From contig NZ_JAMBOH010000004.1 in NCBI RefSeq assembly GCF_023715505.1, positions 1-64,000 of the forward strand: DNA of 64,000 nucleotides, given 5' to 3'. Source of the stretch: Neobacillus cucumis. GTDB lineage: Bacteria > Bacillota > Bacilli > Bacillales_B > DSM-18226. Under the pieces are notes generated by a model. That model was not told the origin of the DNA, searched no databases, and was given only the letters and a program-made list of their open reading frames with translations. Below, one piece after another: positions 21,282-37,110 of this stretch. Position numbers and translations under genes: made by a program. Positions within the stretch are counted from its first letter, which is position 1. Each line of letters opens with the position of its first letter.

Positions 21282-22685
21282 ATGAAAAATTTTATGGATC
21301 AGCACTTTCTGCTTGATACAAAGACCGCGATTAAGCTTTATGATAAAGCCGCAGCCGAGGCACCTATTTTTGATTTCCATTGTCACTTGGATCCTAAAGA
21401 AGTATGGGAAAACAAGTCATATGAAAATATAACTCAGATTTGGCTGGGTGGAGATCATTATAAGTGGAGAACTATGCGGATGCACGGCATTGGCGAGCGC
21501 TACATTACAGGTGATGCGAGTGATTGGGAAAAGTTTGAAAAGTGGGCAGAAACGGTTCCTCATTTAATAGGCAACCCTGTTTATCATTGGACTCACTTAG
21601 AATTAAAAATTTTCTTCGGAATTGATAAGGTATTAAGTCCAGAAACAGCTCAGGAAATTTGGGAAGAATGTAATGAAAAATTACAGAAGCCTGACTTCAG
21701 TGCAAGAGGGCTAATTGAGAGATCAAACGTAAAGTTTATCGGCACAACTGATGATCCAATTTCTACTTTAGAATACCATCAATTATTGAAAAATGATGAA
21801 ACTTTTAACACAATGATTGCTCCAACATTCCGTCCGGATGGTGCGCTTTTTATTGAACGTCCAACTTTCACAAGCTGGCTTGAAAAATTGGCTAATGTTT
21901 CAGGCATAAAAACAGATTCCTTAGATGGGTTTTTAGCAGCATTGAAACAACGAGTTGAGTATTTTCATCAAAATGGGGGCCGTGCCTCTGACCATGATAT
22001 TCAAAAAATGGAGTATGTAGAAACAACTAAGCAAGAGGTTGAAGCCATTTTCAATAAACGTGTAAGCGGTGAACAACTTTCAAATCAAGAATTGACTGCT
22101 TATCGTATTTTCCTCTTAAAAGAACTTGGGAAAATGTATGCTGAAAAGCAGTGGGTTATGCAGCTTCATATGGGAGCCATGCGGAACAATAACACAAGAA
22201 TGAAAGAATTGCTTGGAACAGATGTAGGATTTGATTCAGTTGGAGAAGCTAATATGGCGGAGGGCTTATCTCGATTCCTTGATGCCCTTGATCAAGAAAA
22301 AGCACTTCCAAGAACTGTTTTATTTAACTTGAACCAAAAAGATAATGTCGTATTAGCCGGGATGATGGGGAACTTCTATGAAGAAGGTGTTCCTGGGAAG
22401 GTCCAATTAGGTTCTGGCTGGTGGTTTGTTGACCATATCGATGGTATGGAAAGACAAATGAAGGATTTTGCAAATGTGGGTGTACTAAGCCATTTTATTG
22501 GTATGCTGACAGATTCTCGCAGTTTCCTCTCATATGCACGTCATGACTATTTCCGTCGAATTTTATGTAACATCCTTGGCGATTGGGTAGAAAAAGGGTT
22601 AGCACCAAACGATATGAATCACATGGAGAAAATGGTTCGGAATATTTGCTATGATAATGCCGAACGATTCTTTTTGAAACGCTAA
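21282..22685 (+). CDS. uxaC: Glucuronate isomerase UxaC
   Basis: 467 residues, full length. Converts D-glucuronate to D-fructuronate (or galacturonate to tagaturonate) in the cytoplasm. The metal-binding DFHCHLDP (about residues 30-37) of the amidohydrolase-like fold, LHMGAMRNNNTRM, and WWFVDHIDGMERQM near the C-terminus are all intact. The ATG follows AAGGAGAG. First gene behind a ROK-controlled promoter, followed by gndA after 139 bp with only a weak hairpin (about 22701-22722), so the two may be cotranscribed. This anchors the island in hexuronate breakdown. Confidence 0.95.
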   Translation: MKNFMDQHFLLDTKTAIKLYDKAAAEAPIFDFHCHLDPKEVWENKSYENITQIWLGGDHYKWRTMRMHGIGERYITGDASDWEKFEKWAETVPHLIGNPVYHWTHLELKIFFGIDKVLSPETAQEIWEECNEKLQKPDFSARGLIERSNVKFIGTTDDPISTLEYHQLLKNDETFNTMIAPTFRPDGALFIERPTFTSWLEKLANVSGIKTDSLDGFLAALKQRVEYFHQNGGRASDHDIQKMEYVETTKQEVEAIFNKRVSGEQLSNQELTAYRIFLLKELGKMYAEKQWVMQLHMGAMRNNNTRMKELLGTDVGFDSVGEANMAEGLSRFLDALDQEKALPRTVLFNLNQKDNVVLAGMMGNFYEEGVPGKVQLGSGWWFVDHIDGMERQMKDFANVGVLSHFIGMLTDSRSFLSYARHDYFRRILCNILGDWVEKGLAPNDMNHMEKMVRNICYDNAERFFLKR

Positions 22686-22824
22686 GGTGCAGGTCTGATT
22701 GAGGTCCTGTATAGGGGGCCTCTTCTTGATCTAATGTTAATTAGAAAAATAAGAACTTTTTTATTGTCATAAGGGTAAGAATATGGTTATCTATAAAGAA
22801 TAACAACAAGGAAAGAGGGATAGT

Positions 22825-24237
22825 ATGTCAAAACAACAAATCGGTGTAATTGGTTTAGCAGTAATGGGAAAGAACTTGGCCTTAAATATTGAAAGCCGTG
22901 GATATTCAGTAGCTGTTTTTAACCGCTCTTACGATAAAACAGATGCATTCTTAAAGAATGAGGCTGAAGGAAAAAACTTTGTTGGTGCTCATACAGTAGA
23001 GGAATTTGTGAATTCCTTAGAAAAGCCGCGTAAAATTTTATTAATGGTTAAAGCTGGTACCGCTACTGATGCAACAATTGATTCTTTAAAACCATACCTT
23101 GAAGAAGGCGATATCCTAATTGATGGAGGAAACACATTCTTCCAAGATACAATTAGACGTAACAAAGAATTAGCCAATGCTGGCTTCCATTTTATTGGTA
23201 CAGGTGTTTCCGGAGGAGAAGAAGGGGCTCTTAAAGGACCATCCATTATGCCTGGCGGGAATAAAGAAGCATATGAATTAGTACAGCCTATTTTAGAAGC
23301 TATTTCAGCTAAGGTTGAGGGCGATCCATGCTGCACCTACATTGGACCAAACGGCGCAGGTCATTATGTGAAAATGGTTCATAATGGAATTGAATATGGA
23401 GATATGCAATTAATTTCCGAAGCTTATTTTATTTTGAAAAATGTTCTTGGGTTAGGTGCAGAAGAGCTGCATAATGTATTTTCTGAATGGAATAAAGGCG
23501 AATTAGATAGCTACTTAATCGAAATTACTGCAGATATCTTTACAAAGGTAGACGAAGACACAGGTAAACCAATGGTAGATGTAATCCTAGATACTGCAGG
23601 CCAAAAAGGTACTGGTAAGTGGACAAGCCAAAATGCCCTAGATTTAGGGGTGCCACTTCCAATTATCACAGAATCAGTCTTCGCTCGCTTTATCTCAGCA
23701 ATGAAAGAAGAGCGTGTAAAAGCAAGTAAAGTATTAACCGGACCAGAGGTTAAGCCATTTGAGGGAAGCAAAGAAGAATTAATTGAAGCTGTTCGTAAAG
23801 CTTTATACATGAGTAAAATTTGCTCGTATGCACAAGGTTTTGCCCAAATGCGTGTTGCATCTGAAGAATATGACTGGAATCTTCGTTACGGGGATATTGC
23901 GATGATTTTCCGCGGAGGCTGTATCATCCGTGCTCAATTCCTACAAAAAATCAAAGATGCATACGACCGTGATTCAGAACTTTCAAACCTTTTATTAGAT
24001 CCATACTTCAAGGATATTGTAGAGAACTATCAACAGGCGTTACGTCAAGTCATTGCAGTGGCGATTGAGCGTGGTATTCCAGTTCCATCATTTGCAAGTG
24101 CAATTGCTTATTATGACAGCTACCGCACTGAAACTCTTCCTGCAAATCTCTTGCAAGCTCAGCGTGACTACTTTGGTGCTCATACGTATCAACGTGTTGA
24201 TAAAGAAGGCGTATTCCATACAAACTGGATGGAATAA
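22825..24237 (+). CDS. gndA: 6-phosphogluconate dehydrogenase, decarboxylating
   Basis: 470 residues. Oxidises 6-phosphogluconate to ribulose-5-phosphate and CO2 with NAD(P)+. The Rossmann motif [15 protein letters not shown] is at the N-terminus; [13 protein letters not shown] and [15 protein letters not shown] hold substrate and catalytic residues; [16 protein letters not shown] is in the helical domain. Full length. It could be the housekeeping GndA or a GntZ-like enzyme of a gluconate pathway; its place behind uxaC and in the same island as a gluconokinase favours the latter use. A strong terminator follows. Confidence 0.95.
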
Positions 24238-24262
24238 GGACTTCTTTTGTTAAGTGATTTAT

Positions 24263-24307
24263 AGAGACTAATCTGCCCATAAGGGTTGGTTAGTCTCTAT
24301 TTTTTTG
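24263..24307 (+). terminator. Terminator after gndA
   Basis: AGAGACTAA / TTAGTCTCT stem with a large loop and an ATTTTTTT tail. Confidence 0.8.
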
Positions 24308-24475
24308 CTGTTTATTGTTTTGACTGGAAATTTTTTATAAAAAGCAATATAAGACAAAAAAGAGAGATATTTGAGCATTTTTAGAGAATGATTTTTACTA
24401 TGGGGTGCAATATAATGAAAACATGGTTCGTTAGCAAATCAGTTGTTAACGCTTACTTATAGGGGTGTGGAACTA

Positions 24476-25375
24476 ATGGATAAGTTGAGTTCGTCTACTT
24501 ATAGAAGAAAAGTAATGGATGAATGGATAACTGCTTTTTATCGGTTACAAGGTTTAGACAACTCATTTAATTTTCACTCACACCGAGAATATGAGATTTA
24601 TTTTTTTCATTCAGGTGATTGTAAGTACTTAATTAACAATCGAATTTATGAATTACAGCCTGGTGACATTATATTGTTGGATGGGATGACATTGCATAAA
24701 CCAAATCCAGGTATAGGCAGCACCTACACAAGAAGTATGCTTCATTTTTCGCCTACTTGGCTTCGTGAATTGTTGGGTACTCTTGGAATTCCTAATTTAT
24801 TAGATCCCTTTAAAAAACTTAACAATTGCTTACTACGAACAGGTTATGATGAATCAGGGCAAATTGTTGATGGAAAGATTAAGGAAATAGCGGCTTCGTT
24901 GGAACTAATTGATGTAGACTTTCAAAGGACCGGTAAGAAAAATGAGCTTTTAGAAGCAGAGGTTAAACTTGAGTTAATTCAATTATTACTAAGAATCTAT
25001 AAGATGAGTCAAAAGGAATTATCTCAAATAACGAGTAAAAAGACCGATAAGGAAGATCATGCTGAGTCAATTGCATCCTGGATTAATGATCACTATTTCG
25101 AAAAGGTTAGTTTGGAGCGGATAGCAGCAGAATTAAATCTCAGTAAGTATTATGCCTCACACGTCTTTAAGGAAGTTACTGGTTTTACGGTAATGGAATA
25201 TGTAATGGGGTGCCGGCTCAATCAGGTGAAGTATTTATTGGAGATGGAACCAGATCGAACGCTTACAGATGTTTCGCGGTCAGCTGGGTTTGAGAGTGTT
25301 GCCCATTTTAGTAGATATTTTAAAGAAAAGGTGGGTAAAACGCCTTCACAATATCGTAAGGAAAAGCTCAAGTAA
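24476..25375 (+). CDS. AraC-family transcriptional regulator
   Basis: 299 residues. An N-terminal cupin sensor (about residues 20-150, with FHSHREYEIYFFHSG and LQPGDIILLDGMTLHKPN) precedes two C-terminal helix-turn-helix units (about 205-298, LERIAAELNLSKYYASHVFKE and GFESVAHFSRYFKEKVGKTPSQYR). Typically an activator responding to a sugar. The frame opens at 24443, but AGGGGTG selects the ATG at 24476. TATAAT at 24411-24416 could be its -10 box. It heads an operon of two TIM-barrel and two Gfo/Idh genes and is probably their local regulator. Confidence 0.9.
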   Translation: MDKLSSSTYRRKVMDEWITAFYRLQGLDNSFNFHSHREYEIYFFHSGDCKYLINNRIYELQPGDIILLDGMTLHKPNPGIGSTYTRSMLHFSPTWLRELLGTLGIPNLLDPFKKLNNCLLRTGYDESGQIVDGKIKEIAASLELIDVDFQRTGKKNELLEAEVKLELIQLLLRIYKMSQKELSQITSKKTDKEDHAESIASWINDHYFEKVSLERIAAELNLSKYYASHVFKEVTGFTVMEYVMGCRLNQVKYLLEMEPDRTLTDVSRSAGFESVAHFSRYFKEKVGKTPSQYRKEKLK

Positions 25376-25406
25376 AAAATCCTTGTAAAAGAAGGAGGAA
25401 TAAGAA

Positions 25407-26294
25407 ATGAATAATGATTTATTAATTTCCGGTTTTTCGGATGAAATCTCTTCTGATTTTAATACTCAGCTTGAAGTTGTAGCAAAATTAGGAATGCGTT
25501 ATATTTCCTTGCGGGGTATCGATGGAAAAAATATTGGTGATTTTACGGTGGAAGAGATAAAAGAAAGTGTCCAGCCACGGCTTCATAGAGCCGGGATTGG
25601 TATTTCTTCGATTGGATCGCCAATCGGTAAGGTGTTCATCAATGATGAAGAGGGATTTGCCAAACAAAAGACCATGTTAGCTACACTTTGCCAGATTGCT
25701 AACTTGTTAGATTGTAAATACATTCGTATTTTTAGCTTTTATATTCCAAAGGGTGAAGAAGCCGACAACTACAGAGATGAAGTAATTGGCAAAATAAAAG
25801 AGTTTGCAGCTATTGCAGAAAAATTTGATGTTATTTTATTACACGAAAATGAAAAGGACATTTATGGGGACATTGCTAGACGCTGTCATGAGATTTTGAA
25901 AGAGGTTGGTTCAGCCTATTTTAAGGCTATCTTTGATTTTGCTAACTTTGTTCAGTGTGGCGAGGATACCCAGGAATGCTACGATTTGTTAAAAGAAGAA
26001 ATTGTCTATATACACATCAAAGACGCTGTCACAACGGATAGTCAAAACGTGGTCTGCGGTACTGGGGAAGGTAAAATACCTGAAATTTTGGCACAAGCAA
26101 TTCAAAGCGGTTACAAAGGCTTCCTAACACTCGAACCTCATCTTGTTCTCTTTGATTCTTTAAAGGACTTGGAACTTGAAGATGCTCAAGAGATTATTAA
26201 AGATAACAAAGGTCTTGATGGTGCAGGTGGGTACAAACTTCAATATGAGTCACTATTAAACATTCTTGAAAAAATAGAAAGCGGGGAAAAATAA
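25407..26294 (+). CDS. Sugar phosphate isomerase/epimerase-like TIM-barrel protein (1)
   Basis: 295 residues. AP-endonuclease-2-like TIM barrel (xylose isomerase-like, IolE family). Probable metal ligands are Glu in LLHENEKDIYG, Asp in IFDFANFVQ, His in YIHIKDAV and Glu in LTLEPHL. Such proteins isomerise, epimerise or dehydrate sugars and keto-sugars. The ATG follows GAAGGAGGAA. It is followed 1 bp later by a Gfo/Idh oxidoreductase gene, so the two probably act in sequence. Substrate unknown. Confidence 0.85.
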   Translation: MNNDLLISGFSDEISSDFNTQLEVVAKLGMRYISLRGIDGKNIGDFTVEEIKESVQPRLHRAGIGISSIGSPIGKVFINDEEGFAKQKTMLATLCQIANLLDCKYIRIFSFYIPKGEEADNYRDEVIGKIKEFAAIAEKFDVILLHENEKDIYGDIARRCHEILKEVGSAYFKAIFDFANFVQCGEDTQECYDLLKEEIVYIHIKDAVTTDSQNVVCGTGEGKIPEILAQAIQSGYKGFLTLEPHLVLFDSLKDLELEDAQEIIKDNKGLDGAGGYKLQYESLLNILEKIESGEK

Positions 26295-26295
26295 A

Positions 26296-27453
26296 ATGGC
26301 AAATGTTAGATTAGGAATTATTGGCTTAGGAGCACAGGGCGGAGCCTACGCAGGATTTTTAGCAGAAGGAAAAGTGAAAAACATGGTTCTTGGAGCAATC
26401 TGTGACATTGACCCAGCGAAAAAGGAATTGGCAGCTGAAAAATATCCTGAAGTTCCATTTTATGATGACTATATTGATATGCTTGAAAGCGGTAAAGTTG
26501 ACGCTGTAGTAACTTGTGTTCCACATTATCTGCACCCTGAAATGGGAATTGAAGCACTTAAAAGAGATATCCATGCATTGGTAGAAAAGCCTGCAGGTGT
26601 TTATACAAAACAAGTAAGAGAATTAAATGAATTTGCTGCAACAAAACCAGAATTAACCTTCGGAATTATGTTTAATCAACGGACAAATCCACTCTATCAA
26701 AAGGTGAAAGAAATTATTGATAATGGTGAAATTGGCCAAATTCGTCGTACAAACTGGATCATTACGACTTGGTGGAGACCACAAGGCTATTATGACCAAA
26801 GCGCATGGAGAGCAACATGGGGCGGCGAAGGCGGCGGTGTCCTTGTCAATCAGGCACCACACCAAATTGATTTGCTTCAGTGGATTTGTGGTATGCCTAA
26901 AAAGGTCTATTCTAATGTAAAATACGGCTACCAAAGAAATATCGCTGTAGAAGATGAAGTAACGACAATCTTAGACTATGGTAATGGAGCAACAGGCGTA
27001 TTTATTACGTGTACGCACGATGTTATGGGAACTGACCGCTTTGAAATTTTGGGGGATAAAGGAAAAATTGTTGTCGATGACAGCAAAAAAATAACGGTTA
27101 AACGTCTTAAAAAATCTGAATCTGAAATGAGCGCAACCATGAGCTGGGCAGATGTAACAAAAATTTTCATGGGTCAGGGCTTATCTGAAATATATACAGA
27201 AGAAGTAATTGAATTTGAAAGTGTTTGGGGCGGTCAGCATATTGCGGTAATGGAAAACTTTGCAGCGAATATTGTGGAAGGAACCCCACTTCTTGCACCT
27301 GGCAGTGACGGAATCAATGGCGTTGCCCTGGCAAATGCAATTCACCTTTCGAGCTGGTTAGGTAAAGAAGTAGAACTTCCAATTGATGAAGAGTTATACT
27401 TCGCAGAGTTGAGTAAAAAAGTGGAAGAAGAAAAAGAGAATCCAATTAAATAA
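26296..27453 (+). CDS. Gfo/Idh/MocA-family oxidoreductase
   Basis: 385 residues. An N-terminal Rossmann domain with GIIGLGAQGG (residues 8-17), the ALVEKPAG motif with catalytic Lys, and NQAPHQIDLLQW with the conserved His in the C-terminal domain. Oxidises or reduces a sugar hydroxyl with NAD(P). It begins 1 bp after the TIM-barrel gene and leads into a second, damaged Gfo/Idh gene. In other bacteria such pairs make and use 3-keto-sugars; that link here is inference. Confidence 0.9.
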   Translation: MANVRLGIIGLGAQGGAYAGFLAEGKVKNMVLGAICDIDPAKKELAAEKYPEVPFYDDYIDMLESGKVDAVVTCVPHYLHPEMGIEALKRDIHALVEKPAGVYTKQVRELNEFAATKPELTFGIMFNQRTNPLYQKVKEIIDNGEIGQIRRTNWIITTWWRPQGYYDQSAWRATWGGEGGGVLVNQAPHQIDLLQWICGMPKKVYSNVKYGYQRNIAVEDEVTTILDYGNGATGVFITCTHDVMGTDRFEILGDKGKIVVDDSKKITVKRLKKSESEMSATMSWADVTKIFMGQGLSEIYTEEVIEFESVWGGQHIAVMENFAANIVEGTPLLAPGSDGINGVALANAIHLSSWLGKEVELPIDEELYFAELSKKVEEEKENPIK

Positions 27454-27534
27454 TCAATATTATTAATCTATAAATCTAAACGAACTCGGGGAGTCTTTCT
27501 TCCTCTTCGGGTTCATTTTAAAGGGGAATAGCTG

Positions 27535-28554
27535 ATGCTCAAAATAGCAGTTATATGACTTGGCGATATATCAAAAATTCATATTCCAGCTATACAAGCA
27601 AACCCTAGTGCCGAGTTAGTGGCAGTATGTGATCTTAATGAATCATTAAGGAATACCGTACCTGATGTAAACTTTTATACTGACTATCAAGAAATGCTAA
27701 AGAAAGAATCATTGGATTGTGTGCATGTTTGTTTGCCGCATAATCTTCACTATCCAGTTACAAAAGTCTGTGTTGAAAATGGTGTTCATGTCTTTCAGGA
27801 GAAGCCTTTGTCTTTAAATACAAAGGAAGGTTTGGCTTTAGCGAAGCTAGAGGATGAGCATCACACTAAAATTTGTGTCTGCTTTCAAAATCGCTGCAAT
27901 GAGTCCTTTGAATTGCTGCAAGAAATTATCGCTAGCGGTCAATTGGGCAAGATGATGGGGATAAAAGGATTAGTTACTTGGTATCGACCAAAAGAATATT
28001 ACGATGTGAAACCTTGGCGTGGAAAGATGGAGTTTGCTGGTGGCGGAGTGATGATTAACCAAGCCCTCCATACCATCGATTTAATCCAGTTGCTTGGTGG
28101 TGAGATTGATTCGATTAGAGGGTCCATCGATCAATTATTGGATTACGGGATTGAGGTTGAAGATACAGCTTCAGCTCATATTAAATTTAAAAATGGTGCA
28201 AAAGGATTATTTTTTGCCACCAATGCCAATGCGGAAAATTCAAGTGTCGAGCTAGAGGTATCCTTTGAAAAAGGAAAATTCACCATCAAAGATAGTGTTT
28301 TAACAAAAATCAATGGAGACGGAAAGAAAGAAAAATTGATTGAAGATGCCAAGATGCCAGGTACAAAATTCTATTACGGGGCAAGCCATATTAAATTAAT
28401 CAATCAATTTTATTCCGCAATAATAAATAACTCCGAGAATTATGTAAAGGTTAAAGATGCCCTTACATCGATGAAAATGATTGACGCAATTCGCCAATCC
28501 TCAGAAGAAAAAAGGATAATAAAAATGGAGGAATTACAACATGCAAACAGCTAA
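27535..28554 (+). pseudogene. Gfo/Idh/MocA-family oxidoreductase with in-frame TGA at codon 8
   Basis: Read through from the ATG at 27535 (AAGGGG 8 bp upstream) the frame codes MLKIAVI, then TGA (27556-27558), then LGDISKIHIPAIQANPSA and a complete Gfo/Idh protein of about 339 residues with VFQEKPLSL and INQALHTIDLIQL. The TGA stands exactly where the first Gly of the Rossmann GLGD motif is expected, one base away from GGA. Nothing else is broken, so it is a recent nonsense mutation, a sequencing error, or a readthrough codon. A restart at GTG 27619 would lack the nucleotide-binding loop. It overlaps the next gene by 14 bp. Confidence 0.8.
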
Positions 28555-29398
28555 AATTGGCGTTCAAATGTTTAACCTTAAAGAAAAAATTGTGGAGCTT
28601 GGTGCATATGAAACATTAAGAAAGTTAAGTGAGCTTGGCTTTCATTATGTCGAAGTAACTCAAATTCAAATGACTGAAGAAAATGTAGCTGAATTAAGAA
28701 GAGCAAGTGTTGATTTTGGGATCAAAATTGCATCTATCTCAGCTCCTTTAGATACCATGCCAGGCATGCCAGGTGAATCATTGACAGAGGACTTTGATAA
28801 AATTGTGAATGATTGCAAAACATTAGATTGTAACTTTATCCGCATTGGTATGATGCCGATCCAATTAATGGGCCATAAGGACCAAGTTATGGAGTATATA
28901 AGTAATGCAGAAGCTATGGCAGAAAGACTAGCGGAGCATGGAATAGAATTATATTATCATAACCACCATATAGAATTTGAAAAATATGATGGAGAATGTT
29001 TGTTGGACATTATGAAAAACAACACTTCTAAACTCGGCTTTGAGCTAGATGTCCACTGGGCTCAAAGAGGTGGCGAGAATCCGATAAATGTGATTAATAG
29101 ATTTGCAGGTCGTGTCTCATTAATCCACTTAAAAGATTATCGAATTGGAAATATGAATGTAAGTGAAGAAGATTTTAAAGATATGTCTAAGTTCATGCAA
29201 AAGTTCACAAATATAATCGAGTTTGCAGAACTTGGTCAAGGTAACTTGGACATAAAGGGTATAATAGAAGCTGGTATTGAAAGCGGTGTACAATATTTCC
29301 TAATTGAGCAAGATGATACTTATGGCCGCGATCCATTTGATACGTTAAAGGATTCGGGGGACTATTTAAGAGAGTTAGGTTATGGAGATTGGTTTTAA
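28541..29398 (+). CDS. Sugar phosphate isomerase/epimerase-like TIM-barrel protein (2)
   Basis: 285 residues. IolE-like TIM barrel with LYYHNHHIEFEKYDG, LGFELDVHWAQRGG, LIHLKDYRIG and FLIEQDDTYG, which supply the metal-binding Glu, Asp/His and His positions. Only distantly like the first TIM-barrel protein of this operon. The ATG follows GGAGGAATT inside the end of the preceding gene, so translation is probably coupled. The operon ends here with a terminator-like repeat. Substrate unknown; related proteins act on keto-inositols and 3-keto-glycosides. Confidence 0.87.
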   Translation: MQTAKIGVQMFNLKEKIVELGAYETLRKLSELGFHYVEVTQIQMTEENVAELRRASVDFGIKIASISAPLDTMPGMPGESLTEDFDKIVNDCKTLDCNFIRIGMMPIQLMGHKDQVMEYISNAEAMAERLAEHGIELYYHNHHIEFEKYDGECLLDIMKNNTSKLGFELDVHWAQRGGENPINVINRFAGRVSLIHLKDYRIGNMNVSEEDFKDMSKFMQKFTNIIEFAELGQGNLDIKGIIEAGIESGVQYFLIEQDDTYGRDPFDTLKDSGDYLRELGYGDWF

Positions 29399-29423
29399 AT
29401 GCAATCAGCTATAAAAGAGGCAG

Positions 29424-29452: not shown

Positions 29453-29489
29453 CTTTGGATCGAGTTTTAGACAAACCAGTTGACGTTAA

Positions 29490-29516
29490 TTAAAAAGGAC
29501 CTCAGTGACGAGGGCC
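29490..29516 (-). terminator. Terminator of ROK copy 2
   Basis: On the minus strand AGGCCCTC / GAGGTCCT form a stem followed by TTTTTAATT. Confidence 0.65.
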
Positions 29517-29530
29517 TAATTGAGTCATCC

Positions 29531-30688
29531 TTATAAAGTTAAACTAAGCTCAGAAACTCCTAAAAACTTTTGAATTCCTAATGCACATGCTCCCATGATA
29601 CATGCTTTTTTTCCGAACTCCGATACTAACAGCTCAGAGTAATGACTTATAGTAGAAGTAAGGTGGGCTTTAAGTTCTTCAGCAGCATTAGGATACAAAC
29701 GAAGCAATTCACTATTTACGACCAAAATTTCTGGGTTATAAAGATTAATTAGATTATTTAGTCCGATGGAAAGATATTCTATAAAATGTTCCATTTCTTT
29801 AAGAATTGTTGGTTCTTGTTCCTTTAATCCAGTCAGGATATCCTCGAAACTAAAATCAAGTGTTTGTTGGACTTGAGTTATACGACGAGTAAGGCTATTT
29901 TCTGAGGCATACTGTTCCCAACAGCCTGAATTTCCGCAGCTGCAAGGTACACCATTGGGCACAATTATCATATGGCCAATTTCTCCTGCATATCCATGAT
30001 AGCCCTTTAACAATTTACCATTTATCATAAATCCAAGTCCAATACCAGAATATAAGCTTACAGATAGTAAGTTGTTACTATGATGGTGTTTGTAAACCTT
30101 TTCCGCAATTGAACATAAATTCGCATTATTTTCAATGTATATATTAATGCCAAGTTCATTTTCTAGGTCTTTTTTTAAGTTTTTGTTTTTCCATCCATGT
30201 TGTGGAACAAAATAAATTATTTCATTGGTATCCACAATTCCGTGAATTCCAAGGACGACTCCAATAAGGCCGTAATGAGTTTGTTCACATTTAAATTGGT
30301 AATTTTTAATTTGCTGGGTTAGTATATCAAAAATGACTTCGTAATTAGAGACTGGCAGGTCGATAACGTCCGTGTGTACGGCACAACCACTCAAATCAGC
30401 CAGAGTAAAGGTAATCGTAGTCTTATCAAGATCAATTCCCAAGGCGAAACCGGCTTTTTGGTTAATTGATAGCATAATCGGTCTTCTCCCTAGACTTTTG
30501 TGTTCTAATTGTGATTCGACTATAAATGCATGATCCAATAGCTCTGAAACCTGCACAGAAATAGTTGCTTTATTTAGTCCTGTAACTTTAGCAATCTCTG
30601 CCCTCGAAATTGATTTATGCTCAATAATTGTACTTAATATTAACGATCTATTCATTTTTTTGATTAGTGATGCATCACCAGTGAGCAT
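29531..30688 (-). CDS. ROK-family transcriptional repressor (XylR-like), copy 2
   Basis: 385 residues, clearly a paralogue of the ROK protein at 19808-21007. The helix-turn-helix SRAEIAKVTGLNKATISVQVS (broken here only by the limits of the motif) is at the N-terminus; the ROK domain carries GFALGIDLD, GYAGEIGHM and CSCGNSGCWEQYAS. The frame is open 60 nt upstream, but AAGGAGG selects the ATG at 30686-30688, aligning its start (MLTGDASLIKKMNRS) with the paralogue (MVTGDAAYIKKINRS). Divergent from the larA operon, with a ROK operator in the shared spacer. Confidence 0.9.
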   Translation of the reverse strand: MLTGDASLIKKMNRSLILSTIIEHKSISRAEIAKVTGLNKATISVQVSELLDHAFIVESQLEHKSLGRRPIMLSINQKAGFALGIDLDKTTITFTLADLSGCAVHTDVIDLPVSNYEVIFDILTQQIKNYQFKCEQTHYGLIGVVLGIHGIVDTNEIIYFVPQHGWKNKNLKKDLENELGINIYIENNANLCSIAEKVYKHHHSNNLLSVSLYSGIGLGFMINGKLLKGYHGYAGEIGHMIIVPNGVPCSCGNSGCWEQYASENSLTRRITQVQQTLDFSFEDILTGLKEQEPTILKEMEHFIEYLSIGLNNLINLYNPEILVVNSELLRLYPNAAEELKAHLTSTISHYSELLVSEFGKKACIMGACALGIQKFLGVSELSLTL

Positions 30689-30735
30689 AAAAAACCTCCT
30701 TGTCTTTTTAAAAGAAAATATCACATATTTATTTA

Positions 30736-30764
30736 TTGACGTATGCAAGCCATAATGATATATT
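30736..30764 (+). promoter_or_regulatory. Sigma-A promoter of the larA operon
   Basis: TTGACG (30736-30741), a 17-bp spacer and TATATT (30759-30764). The operator begins 10 bp later. Confidence 0.7.
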
Positions 30765-30774
30765 ATACAGGTAA

Positions 30775-30799
30775 TTAGTTTGTTTGGTAAACAAATTAA
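30775..30799. promoter_or_regulatory. ROK/XylR-like operator 4
   Basis: TTAGTTTGTTT-GGT-AAACAAATTAA; the half-sites differ at one pair. It ties the larA operon to the uxaC and symporter promoters. Confidence 0.8.
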
Positions 30800-30834
30800 T
30801 TAAAAGATTCCAAATTATTTTAAAAAGGTCAATT

Positions 30835-30848
30835 TGAAAGGGATTACA
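30835..30848. promoter_or_regulatory. cre-like site 3
   Basis: TGAAAGGGATTACA differs from the cre consensus only at the central C. It lies 83 bp before the larA start. A looser version (TGAAAAGGATTTTACA) starts near 18233 before GPH copy 2. Confidence 0.45.
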
Positions 30849-30931
30849 GTTAAGAATTCATACTCCCTGTTCATACATTGAATAGATAACAATGAGGTAA
30901 ACTTAAATTAAACAAAGGAGGATATAAAAAT

Positions 30932-32200
30932 ATGGGAATTCTGCAAGAACTATTAAAGGATATTCCGGTACCCAAAATGGCTAAAGTGAAAGTAAAGTTT
31001 GAAAACAATAAGATTGACGACCTTGGGCAAGAATTAAAGTTGAAATTAAACCGCGTACATATTCAAGAAAAAATTCAGCCTGGGATGGAAATTGCTATTG
31101 CTGTTGGGAGTAGAGGGCTTGACCGGCTCGTAGAATTAACAGCGGTAACGGTGCAATTCCTAAAGGAGCTAGGTGCGAAACCATTCATCGTTCCTAGTAT
31201 GGGTAGCCACGGCGGTGCAACGGCCGAGGGACAGCGTGAGGTATTGGCCCATCTTGGCGTAACAGAAGCTGCTGTCGGTTGTGAAATCCGCTCATCGATG
31301 GAAGTGGTGAAAGTTGGGGAATTACCTAATGGATTACCTATCTATGTTGATAAGTTTGCGTCAAAAGCAGATGGCATTGTGGTCATTAATCGGGTAAAAC
31401 CACATACAGCTTTCCGGGGACCAGTCGAAAGTGGAATTATGAAGATGATTAGTATTGGTCTAGGGAAGCAAAAAGGCGCAGAAGCATGTCACCAAATGGG
31501 CTTTAAATATATGGCTGAAAATGTGCCGGCAATGGCAAAGGTGATTATGGAAAAAACACCATTCCTGTTTGGAGTAGCAACAATTGAGAATGCCTTTGAT
31601 AAAGTGGCAGTGCTCGAAGTACTTACTCCTGAGGAAATTGTGGAAAAAGAACCTGCACTACAAAAGCAAGCCAAAGAGTTATTGCCGAAGCTTTTCTTTG
31701 ATCAATTGGATGTCCTTTTGATTGATGAGATTGGTAAAAATATTAGCGGTGATGGCATGGATCCAAACATTACCGGGCGCTATCCAACCCCGTATGCATC
31801 TGGCGGACCTGATGTAAACAAAATGGTCGTGCTTGACGTAACCGTTCAATCAGAGGGAAATGCGAATGGAGTAGGGACAGCAGATTTTACTACCCAGCGG
31901 CTGGTAGATAAGATGGATAAAGAAGGCACTTATGCGAATGGTTTGACTTCAACCGTTTGTGCACCTACAAAAATTGCTACTACCTTGCCAAATGATAAAA
32001 TGGCTATTCAAGCAGCTGTTAAAACCTGTAATATCTTAGATTTTACAAAGGTTAAATTGGTTAGGATTAAAAATACATTAGTGCTTAGTGAGATTGAAGT
32101 TTCTGAGCCTTTGCTTCCATACATAGCGCAGCATCCGAATATGGAGCAAATTTCAGATGTATATGAATTTCAATTTGATGAAAAAGGAAATTTATTTTAA
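30932..32200 (+). CDS. larA: LarA-superfamily nickel-pincer racemase/epimerase, probable D-gluconate 2-epimerase
   Basis: 422 residues, full LarA length. The nickel-pincer nucleotide (NPN) enzyme residues are in place: catalytic His93 (GSHGG) and His158 (VKPHTAF), Lys171 (GIMKM) that anchors the cofactor, and His187 (EACHQMG) as nickel ligand. The superfamily inverts the carbon next to the carboxylate of 2-hydroxy acids; known members racemise lactate or malate, and some epimerise D-gluconate to D-mannonate. Company with a UxuB-like SDR, gluconokinase, UxaC and Gnd argues for sugar-acid 2-epimerisation, not lactate. The start ATG follows AAAGGAGG. First gene of a ROK-controlled operon that also makes its cofactor. 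Confidence 0.88.
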   Translation: MGILQELLKDIPVPKMAKVKVKFENNKIDDLGQELKLKLNRVHIQEKIQPGMEIAIAVGSRGLDRLVELTAVTVQFLKELGAKPFIVPSMGSHGGATAEGQREVLAHLGVTEAAVGCEIRSSMEVVKVGELPNGLPIYVDKFASKADGIVVINRVKPHTAFRGPVESGIMKMISIGLGKQKGAEACHQMGFKYMAENVPAMAKVIMEKTPFLFGVATIENAFDKVAVLEVLTPEEIVEKEPALQKQAKELLPKLFFDQLDVLLIDEIGKNISGDGMDPNITGRYPTPYASGGPDVNKMVVLDVTVQSEGNANGVGTADFTTQRLVDKMDKEGTYANGLTSTVCAPTKIATTLPNDKMAIQAAVKTCNILDFTKVKLVRIKNTLVLSEIEVSEPLLPYIAQHPNMEQISDVYEFQFDEKGNLF

Positions 32201-32218
32201 ACAAGAGGAGAGATAGAT

Positions 32219-32989
32219 ATGTCAAATTTATTTGATTTAACAGGGAAAACAGCAGTTGCAATCGGGGGAAATGGTGTATTAGGATCAGCGATGGCAAAAG
32301 GTTTAGCGGAGCATGGAGCAAGAGTAGCCATTGTCGGACGTAATTTAGAAAAGGCTGAAGCTGTTGTTCAGGAAATTACCGCAAATGGCGGGGAAGCAAA
32401 GGCATTTCAAGCCGATGTTAGTTCTCGTGACTCCTTAATGAAAGTAGCAGATGACATTGACCAATGGTCAGGCGGGTGTGATATCCTCTTAAATGCACCG
32501 GGAACGAATAGTTCAACACCATTTCTTGAACTTGAAATGGATGAATATGATAAAATTATGGAAATTAACCTTAAAGGAATTGTGTTAGCTTGTCAGATCT
32601 TTGCGAAAAGGATGATTGAACAAGATAGAAAGGGAAGTATTATTAATATTTCTTCTGTATCTTCAACCACACCTCTTTCTCGGGTATTTACGTATTCTGT
32701 ATCAAAAGCAGGTCTTAATAGTGTTACACAATATTTAGCTCGTGAGTTTGCTCCAAATGGAATTCGTGTAAATGCTATTATTCCTGGTTTCTTTCCTGCT
32801 GAACAAAACAGAAAGATTTTGGATGCAGAAAGAATTGAAAACATCATGAGACATACACCGATGAATCGTTTTGGCGAAGCCGAAGAACTTCAAGGTGCGA
32901 CAGTGTGGCTTGCATCGGAAAAAGCATCAAGCTTTGTTACTGGTGCCTTGATAAGAGTAGATGGCGGATTTGGAAGTATGACGATTTAG
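32219..32989 (+). CDS. SDR oxidoreductase, probable D-mannonate oxidoreductase (UxuB-like)
   Basis: 256 residues. Classical short-chain dehydrogenase: GGNGVLGSA nucleotide loop (about residues 17-25), NISSVSS with the catalytic Ser, YSVSKAG with Tyr and Lys. The C-terminal stretch PGFFPAEQNR, HTPMNRFGE and ASSFVTG follows the pattern of SDR-type D-mannonate (fructuronate) oxidoreductases such as YjmF of B. subtilis. It would reduce D-fructuronate from UxaC to D-mannonate, the substrate proposed for the LarA homologue. It begins 18 bp after larA, behind AGAGGAGAG. It might instead act on another aldonate or ketose. Confidence 0.75.
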   Translation: MSNLFDLTGKTAVAIGGNGVLGSAMAKGLAEHGARVAIVGRNLEKAEAVVQEITANGGEAKAFQADVSSRDSLMKVADDIDQWSGGCDILLNAPGTNSSTPFLELEMDEYDKIMEINLKGIVLACQIFAKRMIEQDRKGSIINISSVSSTTPLSRVFTYSVSKAGLNSVTQYLAREFAPNGIRVNAIIPGFFPAEQNRKILDAERIENIMRHTPMNRFGEAEELQGATVWLASEKASSFVTGALIRVDGGFGSMTI

Positions 32990-33068
32990 TCATTGTCACA
33001 TAAAGTAGCTTTTTTTTAAATATGTTAAAGTAGGATAGAAATTAAAGAAAGTCGGGGGAGTTGGGGAA

Positions 33069-33872
33069 ATGCTGACAGAGAAGTATAAAAAATTACAATC
33101 CATTCTCCGTGAGATGAAATCAGTTGTTGTTGCATTTTCAGGAGGGGTAGATAGTACGTTTTTGTTAAAAGCTGCGGTTGAAACATTAGGTACGGAGCAG
33201 GTACTTGCGGTAACAGCAGACTCTGAAAGCTATCCCTCAAGTGAATTGGAAGAGGCAAAGAAACTAGCAGAAAAAATTGGTGCTAAACACCAAGTCATCG
33301 AAACCTCCGAGCTGGCCATCCCGGGCTATGCAGAGAACAATAAGAATCGTTGCTATTTTTGTAAAAGCAGTTTATTCGATCACTTAATCCCTGTAATGAA
33401 TGAAAAGGGGTTTCAAAATGTGATTTATGGTGTCATCGCTGACGATATGAATGAATTTCGCCCTGGCATGAAGGCAGCTAAAGAAAAGGGGATTCGGGGT
33501 CCGCTGCAAGAAGCGGACCTCTATAAAGAAGAAATTAGAGAACTTTCCAAAGTTTTTAATTTGCCAATTTGGAATAAACCCTCTTTAGCCTGTCTTTCAT
33601 CGAGAATAGCCTATGGTGAGTTTATTACTAAGGAGAAATTATCCAAGGTTGAAAAGGCTGAGGATTATCTAAGATCACTTCAAATTCGCCAAGTACGGGT
33701 AAGAACACATCAGGATATTGCAAGGATAGAAGTAGAACCAAGCGATATGGCTATTGTTTTAAATCAGCATGAACAAATAGTTAAACAACTTCAAGACTTT
33801 GGTTACAAATACATTACCCTTGACTTAGTTGGTTATCAGAGCGGAAGTATGAACAAAGTTCTAACTAAATAG
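33069..33872 (+). CDS. larE: ATP-dependent sulfur transferase LarE (NPN cofactor synthesis)
   Basis: 267 residues. PP-loop ATPase with FSGGVDSTF (residues 23-31). LarE adenylates the carboxylates of the pyridinium mononucleotide and inserts sulfur. Cys175 (ACLSSR) aligns with the sulfur donor Cys of known LarE. Two further cysteines, Cys95 and Cys98 (NRCYFCK), complete the three-Cys set seen in the [4Fe-4S]-type LarE of Thermotoga, so this enzyme may be catalytic and not sacrificial; that is inference. The ATG follows GGGGGAG. Followed by a strong terminator before gntK. Confidence 0.92.
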   Translation: MLTEKYKKLQSILREMKSVVVAFSGGVDSTFLLKAAVETLGTEQVLAVTADSESYPSSELEEAKKLAEKIGAKHQVIETSELAIPGYAENNKNRCYFCKSSLFDHLIPVMNEKGFQNVIYGVIADDMNEFRPGMKAAKEKGIRGPLQEADLYKEEIRELSKVFNLPIWNKPSLACLSSRIAYGEFITKEKLSKVEKAEDYLRSLQIRQVRVRTHQDIARIEVEPSDMAIVLNQHEQIVKQLQDFGYKYITLDLVGYQSGSMNKVLTK

Positions 33873-33898
33873 TATTTGCCTCGGGTTTTGATAAGAGT

Positions 33899-33940
33899 AA
33901 AAGAAAAGGCTTTGGAAGAATCCAAAGCCTTTTCTTTTAA
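33899..33940 (+). terminator. Strong terminator inside the lar operon
   Basis: AAAAGAAAAGGCTTTGG / CCAAAGCCTTTTCTTTT is a perfect 17-bp stem ending in a T-rich arm, between larE and gntK. No clear promoter is seen in the 36 bp before gntK, so it probably limits, and does not end, transcription. Confidence 0.88.
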
Positions 33941-33976
33941 AAAATGGATAATTATAAATAAAGGAAGATGAAATTT

Positions 33977-35452
33977 ATGTCAAGTGAATTTGTAATGGGG
34001 CTTGATATTGGAACAACAAGTGTAAAAGCGTGTGTGTTTACTTTAAACGGAAAATTAGTAGCCGAAGTAGAGAAAATGAACACATCCTTTTATCCCCACC
34101 AGGGCTGGGTGGAGCAAGACCCTATCGAAATTGAACAGGCTGCAATCCTAGCAATTAGAGAAGTTATAGATAAAGCAGCCATCGACAAAAATGAATTAGT
34201 TACAATAGGTTTTTCTGCTGCTATGCACTCATTAGTTTGTATCGGTGAAGAGGGAACACCTATTTCTCCAGCACTCATTTGGGCGGATGGCAGGAGTTAT
34301 GAACAAGCTGAAAAGATAATAAAAACAAGGGGAGATAAGGTTTATTCCCAAACCGGAACTCCGGTTCACCCAATGACACCATTTGTAAAGCTAGTCTGGA
34401 TGAAAGAAACAGAATATGAACCTTACAGAAAAGCCCAATACTTTATGTCTATTAAGGAATACTTACTGCAATGCTGGTTTGGTAAAAGGGTGATTGACTA
34501 TTCCATGGCATCAGCAACAGGATTATTCAACCCGGAAACACATAAATGGGAACAAGAATTATTAGAACTTGCTGGTATAAAAGAAAAGCAGCTTTCAGAA
34601 ATTGTTCCTCCGACGAAAACCCTAATAGGCATTAACCAATCAAAGGCTGCAGAAATGGGAATAAACCCGCAAATGCCCTTTGTTGTTGGCGCTGCAGACG
34701 GCCAATTGGCCAATCTCGGCATAGGAGCCATCCTGCCTGGAGAAGTGGCTGTATCTGTAGGTACAAGTGGAGCAATCCGGCAGCTTACAAAAGGAGTAAG
34801 GATTAGTGAAAGTCAAGAAACTTTCTGTTATTCCTTTACAGAGGATACCTCTATTATTGGCGGCCCAACTAACAATGGAGGAGTAGTTCTGCAATGGCTA
34901 AAGGACCTTTTAGAAGACGATCGAAGTTTTACAGATTTTCTAGCCGATGCAAAAAAGGCTGCGCCGGGGGCAGATGGAATTCTCTTTCTTCCTTATTTAA
35001 ATGGTGAACGAGCTCCTATCTGGAATCAACGGGCAAAAGGTAATTTCTATGGAGTTTCCATAACTCATAAAAAAGAACATTTTATTCGAGCCGTGCTAGA
35101 AGGGATTACTTTTAATCTCTATCAAATAGGAAAAGCCTTGGAACGGTTAGCAGGAGAGCCGCAAAAGATTTATGTTAATGGCGGTCTAGCCAGATCTCCA
35201 TTGTGGCTGCAAATGATGGCGGATATTTTTGAAGCAGAGATTTATGTTTCGGAAAGCCACCACAGTGCTGCCTGGGGCGCTGCATGGACAGCCCTTGTCG
35301 CGATTCATAAAGTAGAATCTTTTGAAGATATTAAAAAGAATATACCCATGGGGAAAGCGACCTTACCAAATAAGGATACCAGTGAAATCTATAAGAGGAT
35401 TTATCAGAATTACATCGAATTGGCTAAAGATATGAAAAAGTATTTTAGATAG
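33977..35452 (+). CDS. gntK: FGGY-family carbohydrate kinase, probable gluconokinase
   Basis: 491 residues. Two actin-like domains: the phosphate motif GLDIGTTSVKA at the N-terminus, WADGRSYEQA and HPMTPFVKLVW in the first domain, GADGILFLPYLNGERAP and VNGGLARSPLWLQMMADIF in the second, as in GntK of bacilli. It would phosphorylate D-gluconate to 6-phosphogluconate, feeding GndA. A xylulose or other FGGY specificity cannot be excluded from sequence. GGAAG is 2 nt from the ATG at 33968 but 9 nt from that at 33977, so the latter is chosen. Followed by larB after 19 bp. Confidence 0.82.
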   Translation: MSSEFVMGLDIGTTSVKACVFTLNGKLVAEVEKMNTSFYPHQGWVEQDPIEIEQAAILAIREVIDKAAIDKNELVTIGFSAAMHSLVCIGEEGTPISPALIWADGRSYEQAEKIIKTRGDKVYSQTGTPVHPMTPFVKLVWMKETEYEPYRKAQYFMSIKEYLLQCWFGKRVIDYSMASATGLFNPETHKWEQELLELAGIKEKQLSEIVPPTKTLIGINQSKAAEMGINPQMPFVVGAADGQLANLGIGAILPGEVAVSVGTSGAIRQLTKGVRISESQETFCYSFTEDTSIIGGPTNNGGVVLQWLKDLLEDDRSFTDFLADAKKAAPGADGILFLPYLNGERAPIWNQRAKGNFYGVSITHKKEHFIRAVLEGITFNLYQIGKALERLAGEPQKIYVNGGLARSPLWLQMMADIFEAEIYVSESHHSAAWGAAWTALVAIHKVESFEDIKKNIPMGKATLPNKDTSEIYKRIYQNYIELAKDMKKYFR

Positions 35453-35471
35453 GAAAGTTAGGGGGAAGCTT

Positions 35472-36248
35472 ATGCTTGATGAAATATTAAAACAAGTTCA
35501 AACAGGAACCCTTAGTATTACAGAGGCTAAAGAAAGATTAGCGACCTTTGAAAATCTAGGCTTTGCGAAAGTGGACCATCATCGTAAGAAACGTCAAGGC
35601 TTTGCTGAGGTCATTTATGGCGAAGGAAAAACGGCTGATCAAATCATCTCTATTGTTCAAGCTTTAAGGGCCCGGAATAACGAAATCCTTGTCACAAGAG
35701 TTTCTAAAGAAAAGGCAGTAGTTATCCTGAATACTTGTCCGGAACTTACTTATAATGAGACAGCACATATTCTTTTTCTGAAAGATGAAACCGGGCCAAT
35801 AAAAAATAAAGAGGGCTACATTGCTGTAATAGCCGCAGGTACCTCGGATTTAAGGGTGGCTGAGGAAGCAGCGGTTACTGCAGAGGTTTTAGGCAGTCAT
35901 GTTCATCGCATTTATGATGTAGGAGTTGCAGGAATACATCGTTTATTGAACCATGCTGAGGAAATTCAACAAGCAACTGTATCTGTTGTGGTTGCAGGAA
36001 TGGAAGGAGCCCTTCCAAGTGTAGTTGGCGGTCTTGTCTCCCATCCAGTAATTGCAGTACCAACAAGTATTGGTTACGGAGCAAATTTTCATGGGTTGTC
36101 AGCCCTGTTAACAATGCTAAACTCATGTGCTTCAGGAATAAGTGTTGTCAATATTGATAATGGATTTGGCGGAGGCTATAATGCAGTCTTAATTCACCAA
36201 CTTGCACAAAAAGGGGAAACCGTAAAAAATGAAAACACTATACTTTGA
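35472..36248 (+). CDS. larB: Pyridinium-3,5-bisthiocarboxylate pathway carboxylase LarB
   Basis: 258 residues. LarB carboxylates and hydrolyses nicotinate adenine dinucleotide to start NPN synthesis. The C-terminal half is PurE-like (AAGTSDLRVAEEAA, GVAGIHRLL, AGMEGALPSVVGGL), and Cys219 (LNSCASG) matches the Cys that captures the substrate in known LarB. The ATG follows AGGGGGAAG. It overlaps larC by 20 bp, so translation is coupled. Confidence 0.95.
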   Translation: MLDEILKQVQTGTLSITEAKERLATFENLGFAKVDHHRKKRQGFAEVIYGEGKTADQIISIVQALRARNNEILVTRVSKEKAVVILNTCPELTYNETAHILFLKDETGPIKNKEGYIAVIAAGTSDLRVAEEAAVTAEVLGSHVHRIYDVGVAGIHRLLNHAEEIQQATVSVVVAGMEGALPSVVGGLVSHPVIAVPTSIGYGANFHGLSALLTMLNSCASGISVVNIDNGFGGGYNAVLIHQLAQKGETVKNENTIL

Positions 36249-37110
36249 TTGTTTTTCAGGAATAAGCGGGGATATGGTCCTCGGTGCGCTAATCGATGCA
36301 GGGGCAGACCCGAATCTTTTAGTGGCAGAATTGAAGAAGCTGCAAATAGAAGATGAATATGATTTGAAATGGAAAAGAATTGTTAAGAATGGAATCACCA
36401 GTACGAAGTTTGATGTGATTCTACTAAATAGCTCTGAGCAGACTCATAATCACCAAGAGCACAGTCATGATCACGAACATGAGCACAGCCATGATCATGA
36501 ACATGATCACGAACATGGTCACAGCCATGATCATGATCACAGCCATGATCACGAACATAAATATACCCATGCTCATGAACACCATGATCACCATCACCAT
36601 ACACATCGTGCATATAAAGATATTGTAGAGTTAATTGAAGCAGCTGATTTCTCTATTCCAGTCAAAGAAACGGCTCTAAAGATATTTAAAAGAATTGGAG
36701 AGGCGGAAGGGCTTATCCACGGGATTCCTTTAGAAAAGGTTCATTTCCATGAAGTAGGTGCCATTGATTCTATTATCGATATAATAGGCGCAGCGATATT
36801 CATTCATCAATTAAACGTTGAAACAATAAAGTCATCCCCGATCCCAGTGGGAACGGGAAGAATCCATATTGACCATGGAATTTATCCTGTTCCGGCTCCT
36901 GCAACACTAGAAATTCTAAAAGGAGTACCAATTGAGCAGTCAGACATAAGGGCAGAGTTAACCACACCAACTGGAGCGGCCATTATTGCTGTACTCGCTG
37001 AGGAATTCGGGCCCATCCCTTCAATGAAAATATCTTCAATTGGCTATGGGGCAGGAACAAAAACCTTTAAACAACATCCCAACGTACTTCGAGTAATTAT
37101 CGGTGATTAA
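36229..37110 (+). CDS. larC: Nickel insertion protein LarC, N-terminal domain only, His-rich
   Basis: 293 residues against roughly 400 for full LarC. The N-terminal cyclometallase domain is intact: CFSGISGDMVLGAL at the start, VHFHEVGAIDSIIDIIG, and GTGRIHIDHGIYPVPAPATLEIL. The frame stops right after HPNVLRVIIGD, where full-length LarC goes on into the C-terminal domain with the NIDDM motif (LarC2 of Lactobacillus). No LarC2 sequence follows; repeat copy E begins at the stop codon. Residues 73-126 contain 28 His, mostly in HD/HE repeats, probably for nickel storage or capture. Either LarC2 is encoded elsewhere or the gene has lost it. Confidence 0.88.
   Translation: MKTLYFDCFSGISGDMVLGALIDAGADPNLLVAELKKLQIEDEYDLKWKRIVKNGITSTKFDVILLNSSEQTHNHQEHSHDHEHEHSHDHEHDHEHGHSHDHDHSHDHEHKYTHAHEHHDHHHHTHRAYKDIVELIEAADFSIPVKETALKIFKRIGEAEGLIHGIPLEKVHFHEVGAIDSIIDIIGAAIFIHQLNVETIKSSPIPVGTGRIHIDHGIYPVPAPATLEILKGVPIEQSDIRAELTTPTGAAIIAVLAEEFGPIPSMKISSIGYGAGTKTFKQHPNVLRVIIGD

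Follow-up and report, generated by a model that had tools for sequence, protein, structure and literature searches.

The window analysed here is a stretch of 64,000 nucleotides from Neobacillus cucumis (contig NZ_JAMBOH010000004.1, positions 1 to 64,000 of the forward strand), and the subject of this analysis is a gene cluster at positions 16489 to 37110 that contains a homologue of the nickel-pincer enzyme LarA. In order, the cluster encodes two GPH-family symporters, a ROK-family repressor, UxaC, Gnd, an AraC-family regulator, a cassette of TIM-barrel and Gfo/Idh proteins, a second ROK-family repressor, the LarA homologue, a short-chain dehydrogenase/reductase (SDR), LarE, an FGGY kinase, LarB, and LarC1. 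All genes lie on the plus strand except those of the two ROK proteins. The LarA protein is 97% identical to that of Neobacillus drentensis JC05, the closest named relative. The cluster is best read as encoding a route from glucuronate to ribulose-5-phosphate that would pass through a nickel-pincer epimerisation by LarA, and we hold this reading, which is built from sequence comparisons, with good confidence.

A glucuronate isomerase, a predicted fructuronate reductase, a candidate C2 epimerase, a predicted gluconokinase, and a 6-phosphogluconate dehydrogenase are encoded together in the window, with the kinase below its curated cut-off and the reductase barely above it. The isomerase UxaC (21282 to 22685) scores 646.7 bits against the NF002794 equivalog (cut-off 387), and Gnd (22825 to 24237), an NADP-dependent decarboxylating dehydrogenase, reaches 793.3 bits with NF006765 (cut-off 413) and 773.2 bits with TIGR00873. 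The LarA homologue (30932 to 32200), a predicted D-mannonate/D-gluconate 2-epimerase, matches NF052515, the model for group 22 of the isomerases with the nickel-pincer nucleotide (NPN) cofactor (“NPN isomerase group 22”; 559.1 bits, cut-off 400). It is followed by the SDR (32219 to 32989), which is predicted to take the role of UxuB and scores 288.7 bits against the D-mannonate oxidoreductase model NF006132 (cut-off 281). NPN synthesis is represented by the sulfur transferase gene larE (33069 to 33872; TIGR00268, 371.6 bits, cut-off 150), by larB (35472 to 36248; NF033503, 306 bits, cut-off 175), and by larC1 (36229 to 37110; TIGR00299, 224.9 bits, cut-off 90), in which the LarC2 part is missing. 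An earlier note on this DNA, made from the sequence alone, had described a single island, and the seven genes uxaC, gnd, larA, SDR, larE, larB, and larC1 indeed all exceed curated cut-offs; the larE/B/C set that it listed is present apart from LarC2. The FGGY kinase (33968 to 35452), which the note called a gluconokinase, finds its best model in the gluconokinase TIGR01314, but its score of 484.4 bits lies under the cut-off of 648.55 (xylulokinase, 344.3). What the note observed was largely right, with corrections concerning the LarA residues, LarC, and the kinase.

In the proposed pathway, the GPH symporters would import the substrate, UxaC would convert glucuronate to D-fructuronate, and the SDR would reduce D-fructuronate to D-mannonate. 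LarA, equipped with the nickel-pincer cofactor by LarB, LarE, and a LarC protein, would then invert C2 of D-mannonate to give D-gluconate, which the FGGY kinase would phosphorylate to 6-phosphogluconate for decarboxylation by Gnd to ribulose-5-phosphate. With the reactions running in this predicted direction, the genes would form a regulon for the catabolism of glucuronate, probably glucuronide-derived, that feeds the pentose phosphate pathway. The canonical UxaC–UxuB–UxuA–KdgK–KdgA pathway, as described in PMC6353982, has the same first two steps, from glucuronate through fructuronate to mannonate. The proposed route differs from it in having a C2 epimerisation in place of the dehydration to 2-keto-3-deoxygluconate (KDG), and it would end at ribulose-5-phosphate and CO2.

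Joint control of the cluster is suggested by a 26-base palindromic motif that occurs at four sites of the window with at most three mismatches, whereas 0.00 sites are expected from 100 shuffles; the shared operators described in the note are thereby borne out. At all four sites, the palindrome has the form AATTWGTTTRKTAAACAAAYTAATTA. The sites are located 5′ of the first symporter gene (16377 to 16403, two to three mismatches), 5′ of the second (18150 to 18176, no mismatches on the plus strand and two on the minus strand), between the first ROK gene and uxaC (21146 to 21176, one to two mismatches), and between the second ROK gene and larA (30772 to 30802, one to two mismatches). The operator core TTWGTTTNNTAAACWAA is also found less than 200 bases 5′ of larA in 29 of 56 related loci. 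Judging from their position, the two ROK-family proteins (19808 to 21007 and 29531 to 30748, both on the minus strand), for which all NagC/Mlc/ROK matches remain under cut-off, are the probable repressors at the four palindromes, where they would turn the whole gene set on together in response to a putative inducer.

The LarA homologue of the window falls into a NCBIfam group, group 22, that has no assigned reaction; the NCBI numbering presumably follows the group numbers of 2020. A sequence search of the single protein against solved structures gave no match, and a profile of 15 LarA sequences matched only TAL-effector repeats there, with poor E-values, which we judged to be chance. Since sequence searches against structures were uninformative, the kinship with LarA was settled by comparison of structures and profiles. 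Structure comparison revealed the LarA two-domain fold in the predicted structure of the window protein. In hhalign comparisons, its residues R61, K171, and H187 correspond to the NPN-binding residues R75, K184, and H200, and H93 and H158 to the catalytic residues H108 and H174. These five equivalents are invariant in the 15 sequences of alignment A1 and in all 22 group 22 sequences aligned with MAFFT. Global hhalign comparison of group 22 with two LarA proteins yielded no useful alignment; the local matches span window residues 29 to 189 or 29 to 266, and W358 and T359 fall outside the residues covered. A lactate or malate racemase function was rejected: at E 0.001 there is no listed match to the lactate model NF033504, and those to the malate models, with 23.5 to 30.7 bits, cover just a portion of the N-terminal half.

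In a FastTree phylogeny with midpoint rooting, the GntE2 enzyme of Thermotoga maritima (PDB 4nar) and group 18 cluster with the lactate and malate racemases and are split from the 22 group 22 sequences with a support of 1.0. The window LarA thus branches apart from the clade that unites T. maritima GntE with the two racemases, and it is not a member of the gluconate-epimerase groups on which the note relied. On this sequence phylogeny, group 22 forms a deep branch that is set apart from the known GntE enzymes. For this reason, mannonate epimerisation would have an independent origin on the group 22 branch, where it would have arisen with an altered catalytic site.

The 56 LarA loci used for comparison come from one scan of GTDB genomes, with flanks of up to 10 kb on each side and many contigs that are shorter. 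Within the fetched flanks, the SDR (at least 60% identity) is present in 44 loci, UxaC in 27, and Gnd in 29. LarA and SDR together with lar genes occur in Neobacillus, Peribacillus, Niallia, Domibacillus, Paenibacillus, Virgibacillus, and other records, and nine loci have a transketolase gene at most about 160 bases 3′ of larC2. A metagenome-assembled genome (MAG) of Paenibacillaceae, whose LarA is 63% identical to that of the window (L045), shows the order UxaE, LarA, FGGY kinase, SDR, Gnd. Locus L004 has no kinase in the gap between larE and larB and carries a classical gluconokinase beyond larC2 (818.3 bits, cut-off 648.55); two further classical gluconokinases lie beyond the cluster in L016 and L025 (830.7 and 815.3 bits). 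Unless they are part of separate gluconate operons, these kinases favour gluconate as the acid that is phosphorylated. The larA frame is open in 48 of the 49 loci at 63–97% identity.

The co-occurrence of LarA with the enzymes of hexuronate catabolism was counted in 193 genomes from the family of N. drentensis, of which 62 contain group 22 proteins, 80 an intact UxaC, and 64 an intact UxuA. Fragments and distant matches (UxuA of G018, G020, and G197; UxaC of G128, G184, and G201) had been removed before counting, and the split UxuA of G024 was kept. When all group 22 proteins are counted together, which mixes clades, UxaC is present in 52 of the 62 genomes and missing from 10, in which every group 22 match has at most 58% identity. 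After the loci had been fetched, the clade of the window was counted alone, as defined by 77–97% identity to the window LarA: matches fall either into this range (47 genomes) or at or below 58% (45 matches), with none between. UxaC is encoded in 47 of 47 genomes with this clade versus 33 of the 146 others. The SDR gene lies within 300 bases of larA in all of these 47 genomes but one (G023, where the contig has 6807 bases), that is, in 46, versus none of the 45 lower matches. Among the 80 genomes with UxaC, UxuA is found in 22 of 47 with the clade versus 27 of 33 without it (Fisher P 0.002, uncorrected for kinship), and it is therefore missing from 25 of 47 and 6 of 33, respectively. N. mesonae and Niallia endozanthoxylica are examples of strains that lack UxuA. 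Four of the 47 (G004, G015, G018, and G019) have UxaC and the clade LarA and lack both UxuA and a 2-keto-3-deoxy-6-phosphogluconate (KDPG) aldolase over cut-off, whereas the aldolase is present in 33 of 33 UxaC genomes without the clade; four of 47 versus none of 33 are too few to test. In a set of 50 genomes, namely those behind the first 56 loci minus L020, L036, L038, L053, L054, and L056, full-length UxuA was found in 17, UxaC over cut-off in 47, and KDPG aldolase over cut-off in 43. This set added a fifth genome with UxaC and LarA and neither UxuA nor the aldolase (G012) and a sixth (G040), in which UxaC and LarA have in-frame stops. Single gene absences are weak evidence; the link between LarA and UxaC is not.

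Taken together, the reaction order proposed in the note is well supported by the genomic context, namely by UxaC in all clade genomes, the adjacent SDR in all but one, the transketolase genes, the gluconokinases at or near three loci, and the gene order of L045. The interpretation given in the note as a whole is partly supported. Its statement that uxuA, kdgK, and kdgA are absent holds for the window, where tblastn searches with one protein each (E up to 1) gave no match for UxuA or KdgK and a single 14-residue match for KdgA (E 0.92), but the closest named relative has UxuA and aldolase-family genes elsewhere in its genome. By analogy with that relative, the genome of the window may carry both the epimerase and the KDG routes. 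In N. drentensis JC05, the uxuA gene (L067; G001 C1:4074000-4092000) adjoins ABC sugar transport genes, Gfo/Idh genes, and a remnant of UxaC that covers 95 model positions and contains one stop. A second, intact UxaC of this strain is encoded about 6 kb from a KDPG-aldolase-family gene, and its second group 22 protein adjoins a galactarate dehydratase.

Several observations weigh against the glucuronate route. UxuA is retained in 22 of the 47 clade genomes, among them N. drentensis JC05, which has three KDPG-aldolase-family matches as well; the claim that epimerisation replaces the dehydration to KDG can hold for the 25 genomes without UxuA, four of which also lack the aldolase over cut-off, but not for these 22. 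The genome counts come from a single family, with kinship uncorrected and assembly completeness not given. For LarA, the note had reported all NPN residues, which is true of the equivalents of R75, H108, H174, K184, and H200, but D72 has no counterpart and none was recognised for K298. At D72, classed as catalytic in PMC7583248, none of the 22 group 22 sequences has Asp or any other aligned residue in the MAFFT alignment, whereas Asp is kept there by GntE2, by the lactate and malate enzymes, and by two sequences from group 18. The K298 position has no Lys in 22 of 22 sequences and Arg in four, in a region outside the hhalign match and of lower confidence in the model; R283, almost invariant in A1, is a candidate for its role. 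The GntE loop signature known from PMC11770544 and PMC7583248 (the second catalytic His followed by E and next by V or S) is also absent: the window protein reads H-T-A-F-R-G-P in a longer loop, compared with H-E-V in L106 and L108 and H-E-S in 4nar. The window kinase shares its score under the gluconokinase cut-off with all six other LarA-linked kinases scored (395–626 bits), the fetched stretches of the Paenibacillus loci L026, L027, and L029 contain no matching FGGY kinase, and the three classical gluconokinases found at or near other clusters could be part of gluconate operons of their own (L004, L016, and L025). In a Clostridia MAG (L046:6530-10706), a LarA with the same 63% identity as that of L045 lies directly between IlvD-type and galactonate dehydratases, with a KDG kinase and a KDPG aldolase near. 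In a tree from which L043 was left out because of the in-frame stops in its LarA, this protein falls into one clade with the window and L045, which shows that Gnd need not be the exit for enzymes of this clade. LarC2 has no match within the window, where it is missing 3′ of larC1 (region 36229 to 37552), and it is missing as well from the two closest loci, L001 and L002; of the 56 related loci, 38 do contain it. In three close relatives (G001, G002, and G003), a frame of 407–466 amino acids elsewhere in the genome includes a part that is 39–40% identical to LarC2, which makes a supply by a separate gene plausible, by analogy also for the window strain. Finally, the papers listed in searches of open-licence PMC included no assay of a group 22 enzyme and none on the function of the group or on the cluster.

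These points can be accommodated by other readings to different degrees. The two middle steps might be swapped, with the FGGY kinase acting on D-mannonate and LarA epimerising 6-phosphomannonate to 6-phosphogluconate. Both activities were shown in cell extracts of Lactobacillus suebicus (PMC6978723), and the low scores of the seven LarA-linked kinases would fit such an order. It is nevertheless unlikely given the classical gluconokinases (815–831 bits) at or near L004, L016, and L025 and the use of free hydroxy acids by the LarA-family enzymes assayed in two studies. LarA might also epimerise another sugar acid, such as an aldarate or a product of the TIM-barrel and Gfo/Idh proteins, while glucuronate would be degraded via KDG by UxuA and further enzymes encoded in another part of the genome. 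Further group 22 members do adjoin galactarate or other sugar-acid dehydratases, N. drentensis JC05 encodes UxuA as well as KDPG-aldolase-family proteins, and for GntE1 (group 19) a different native substrate was assumed (PMC7583248). However, the TIM-barrel/Gfo-Idh cassette is missing from several clusters that retain UxaC, LarA, and SDR (for example, L003, L015, L026, L034, and L037), the UxaC genomes lacking UxuA, and in four cases the aldolase, would be left without this path, and Gnd and transketolase as neighbours fit an exit via 6-phosphogluconate; we regard this reading as improbable. That LarA is inactive as an epimerase or performs another hydride-transfer reaction, in a cluster that is decaying or serves another purpose, would agree with the loss of D72 and the lack of a recognisable K298, with the missing LarC2 of the window, L001, and L002, and with the in-frame stops in the second Gfo/Idh gene and in the L043 LarA. 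This is very hard to reconcile with the retention of both catalytic histidines, R75, K184, and H200 in all 22 group 22 sequences, with a gene that is open in the 48 remaining loci of the 63–97% range, and with the LarC2-like frames of the three relatives searched.

Group 22 proteins of other clades (44–56% identity) have other neighbours. One adjoins a galactarate dehydratase (L068), two adjoin IlvD-type dehydratases (L050 and L070, the latter with TRAP transporter genes), and in five cases (L052, L071, L075, L081, and L082) a galactonate dehydratase is encoded at a distance of about 7 kb. These clades are possibly further nickel-dependent sugar-acid epimerases. With sugar-acid dehydratases as recurrent neighbours, the group as a whole looks like one of sugar-acid epimerases, which supports an aldonate as the substrate of the window LarA. 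We lean slightly towards a broader view, in which group 22 would be an independently evolved family of nickel-pincer enzymes that epimerise sugar acids at C2 with a remodelled active site, where D72 is absent, K298 is not recognisable, and the loop is longer. In Bacillaceae and Paenibacillaceae, one clade would have become the dedicated D-mannonate/D-gluconate epimerase and have taken the place of UxuA, in some genomes even of the entire KDG branch, and other clades would take galactonate, galactarate, or related acids.

The proposed route is not new in kind. Rodionova and coworkers (2012) are said to have proposed an epimerisation of mannonate to gluconate in T. maritima, which thus precedes the present proposal, and GntE has been assayed there. 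Activity of GntE1 and GntE2 on D-mannonate was measured by Desguin and coworkers (2020), according to whom this activity is the probable way for mannonate into the pentose phosphate pathway; the 13 enzymes tested in that study (PMC7583248) did not include group 22. The locus gnd-uxaRED-gntEK of the T. maritima UxaR regulon (PMC3750489) represents the same hexuronate route, in which mannonate is converted to gluconate by a nickel-pincer LarA homologue and then processed by gluconokinase and Gnd. T. maritima also retains a kdgAK-uxuBA operon, as 22 of the 47 genomes retain UxuA here, and its gnd/uxaE/gntE/gntK locus has the gene content of L045, where a group 22 protein replaces GntE. The two systems differ in that GntE2 (LarAH20, PDB 4nar) belongs to group 20, with the loop H-E-S and with D72 and K298 kept, whereas the window enzyme belongs to group 22. 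Furthermore, the T. maritima system includes UxaE and a regulator of the GntR type, whereas the window has ROK repressors and no UxaE match. The hybrid isomerase/phosphoketolase pathway of L. suebicus likewise takes mannonate to 6-phosphogluconate, with UxuA, KdgK, and KdgA undetected in the proteome, but phosphorylation precedes epimerisation there and the genes were not identified (PMC6978723). LarA group 17 (Blautia wexlerae and Streptococcus plurextorum, PDB 9q3j/9q3k) is another divergent branch of the family, with enzymes of no known activity for which PMC12611868 gives a hypothetical link to carbohydrate metabolism. Its structures are near the window LarA in the fold comparison, but its second catalytic histidine is replaced by Asn, whereas group 22 keeps both histidines.

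As far as the papers listed in open-licence PMC reach, the new elements are a separate LarA branch in the epimerase role, its frequency of 47 in 193 genomes of one family, and genomes in which no alternative for the further metabolism of mannonate is apparent. If correct, the glucuronate route would provide a function for a clade in a LarA group that so far has a number but no functional name at NCBI, and mannonate epimerisation would have arisen more than once in the nickel-pincer superfamily. It would also suggest that a good part of Bacillaceae needs nickel for growth on glucuronate, and it bears on whether D72 and K298 are truly needed for LarA-type epimerase chemistry. Because some genomes with UxaC lack both UxuA and a KDPG aldolase over cut-off, a direct test of the prediction is possible.

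The remaining genes of the cluster are less specifically matched. The two GPH symporters (16489 to 17907 and 18279 to 19691) score 359.9 and 369.2 bits with the gph model TIGR00792 (cut-off 231); the best equivalog of the first, “glucuronide transporter”, reaches 295.8 bits and the second 308.2 bits with the same model (cut-off 528), and the first is a probable glucuronide/hexuronide importer. The cassette at 24443 to 29398, which only some related clusters have, unites the AraC-family regulator (24443 to 25375; AraC/MelR-type matches under cut-offs) with two TIM-barrel and two Gfo/Idh genes. The TIM-barrel proteins are a sugar isomerase/epimerase homologue (25407 to 26294), whose L-ribulose-5-phosphate 3-epimerase matches are far under cut-off, and an IolE-like homologue (28541 to 29398; TIGR04379, 48.4 bits, cut-off 290). 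The Gfo/Idh oxidoreductases score 109.6 bits (26296 to 27453) and 101.8 bits (27619 to 28554) against IolG (cut-off 355). The second has a shortened N-terminus, as its upstream frame (27535 to 28554) contains an in-frame stop at codon 8 (position 27556); close relatives have unbroken copies, and the stop reflects either a pseudogene or a sequence error. As a guess, the cassette may handle glucuronides by oxidation. In Salimicrobium flavidum (L043:10001-11263), the larA frame is interrupted by two in-frame stops, and the matched frame of UxaC in this genome contains stops as well; this cluster may be decaying or misassembled. In Bacillus massiliglaciei (L034:1425-6707), a TRAP transporter and a GH31 glycosidase precede UxaC, LarA, and SDR, which points to glycosidic substrates.

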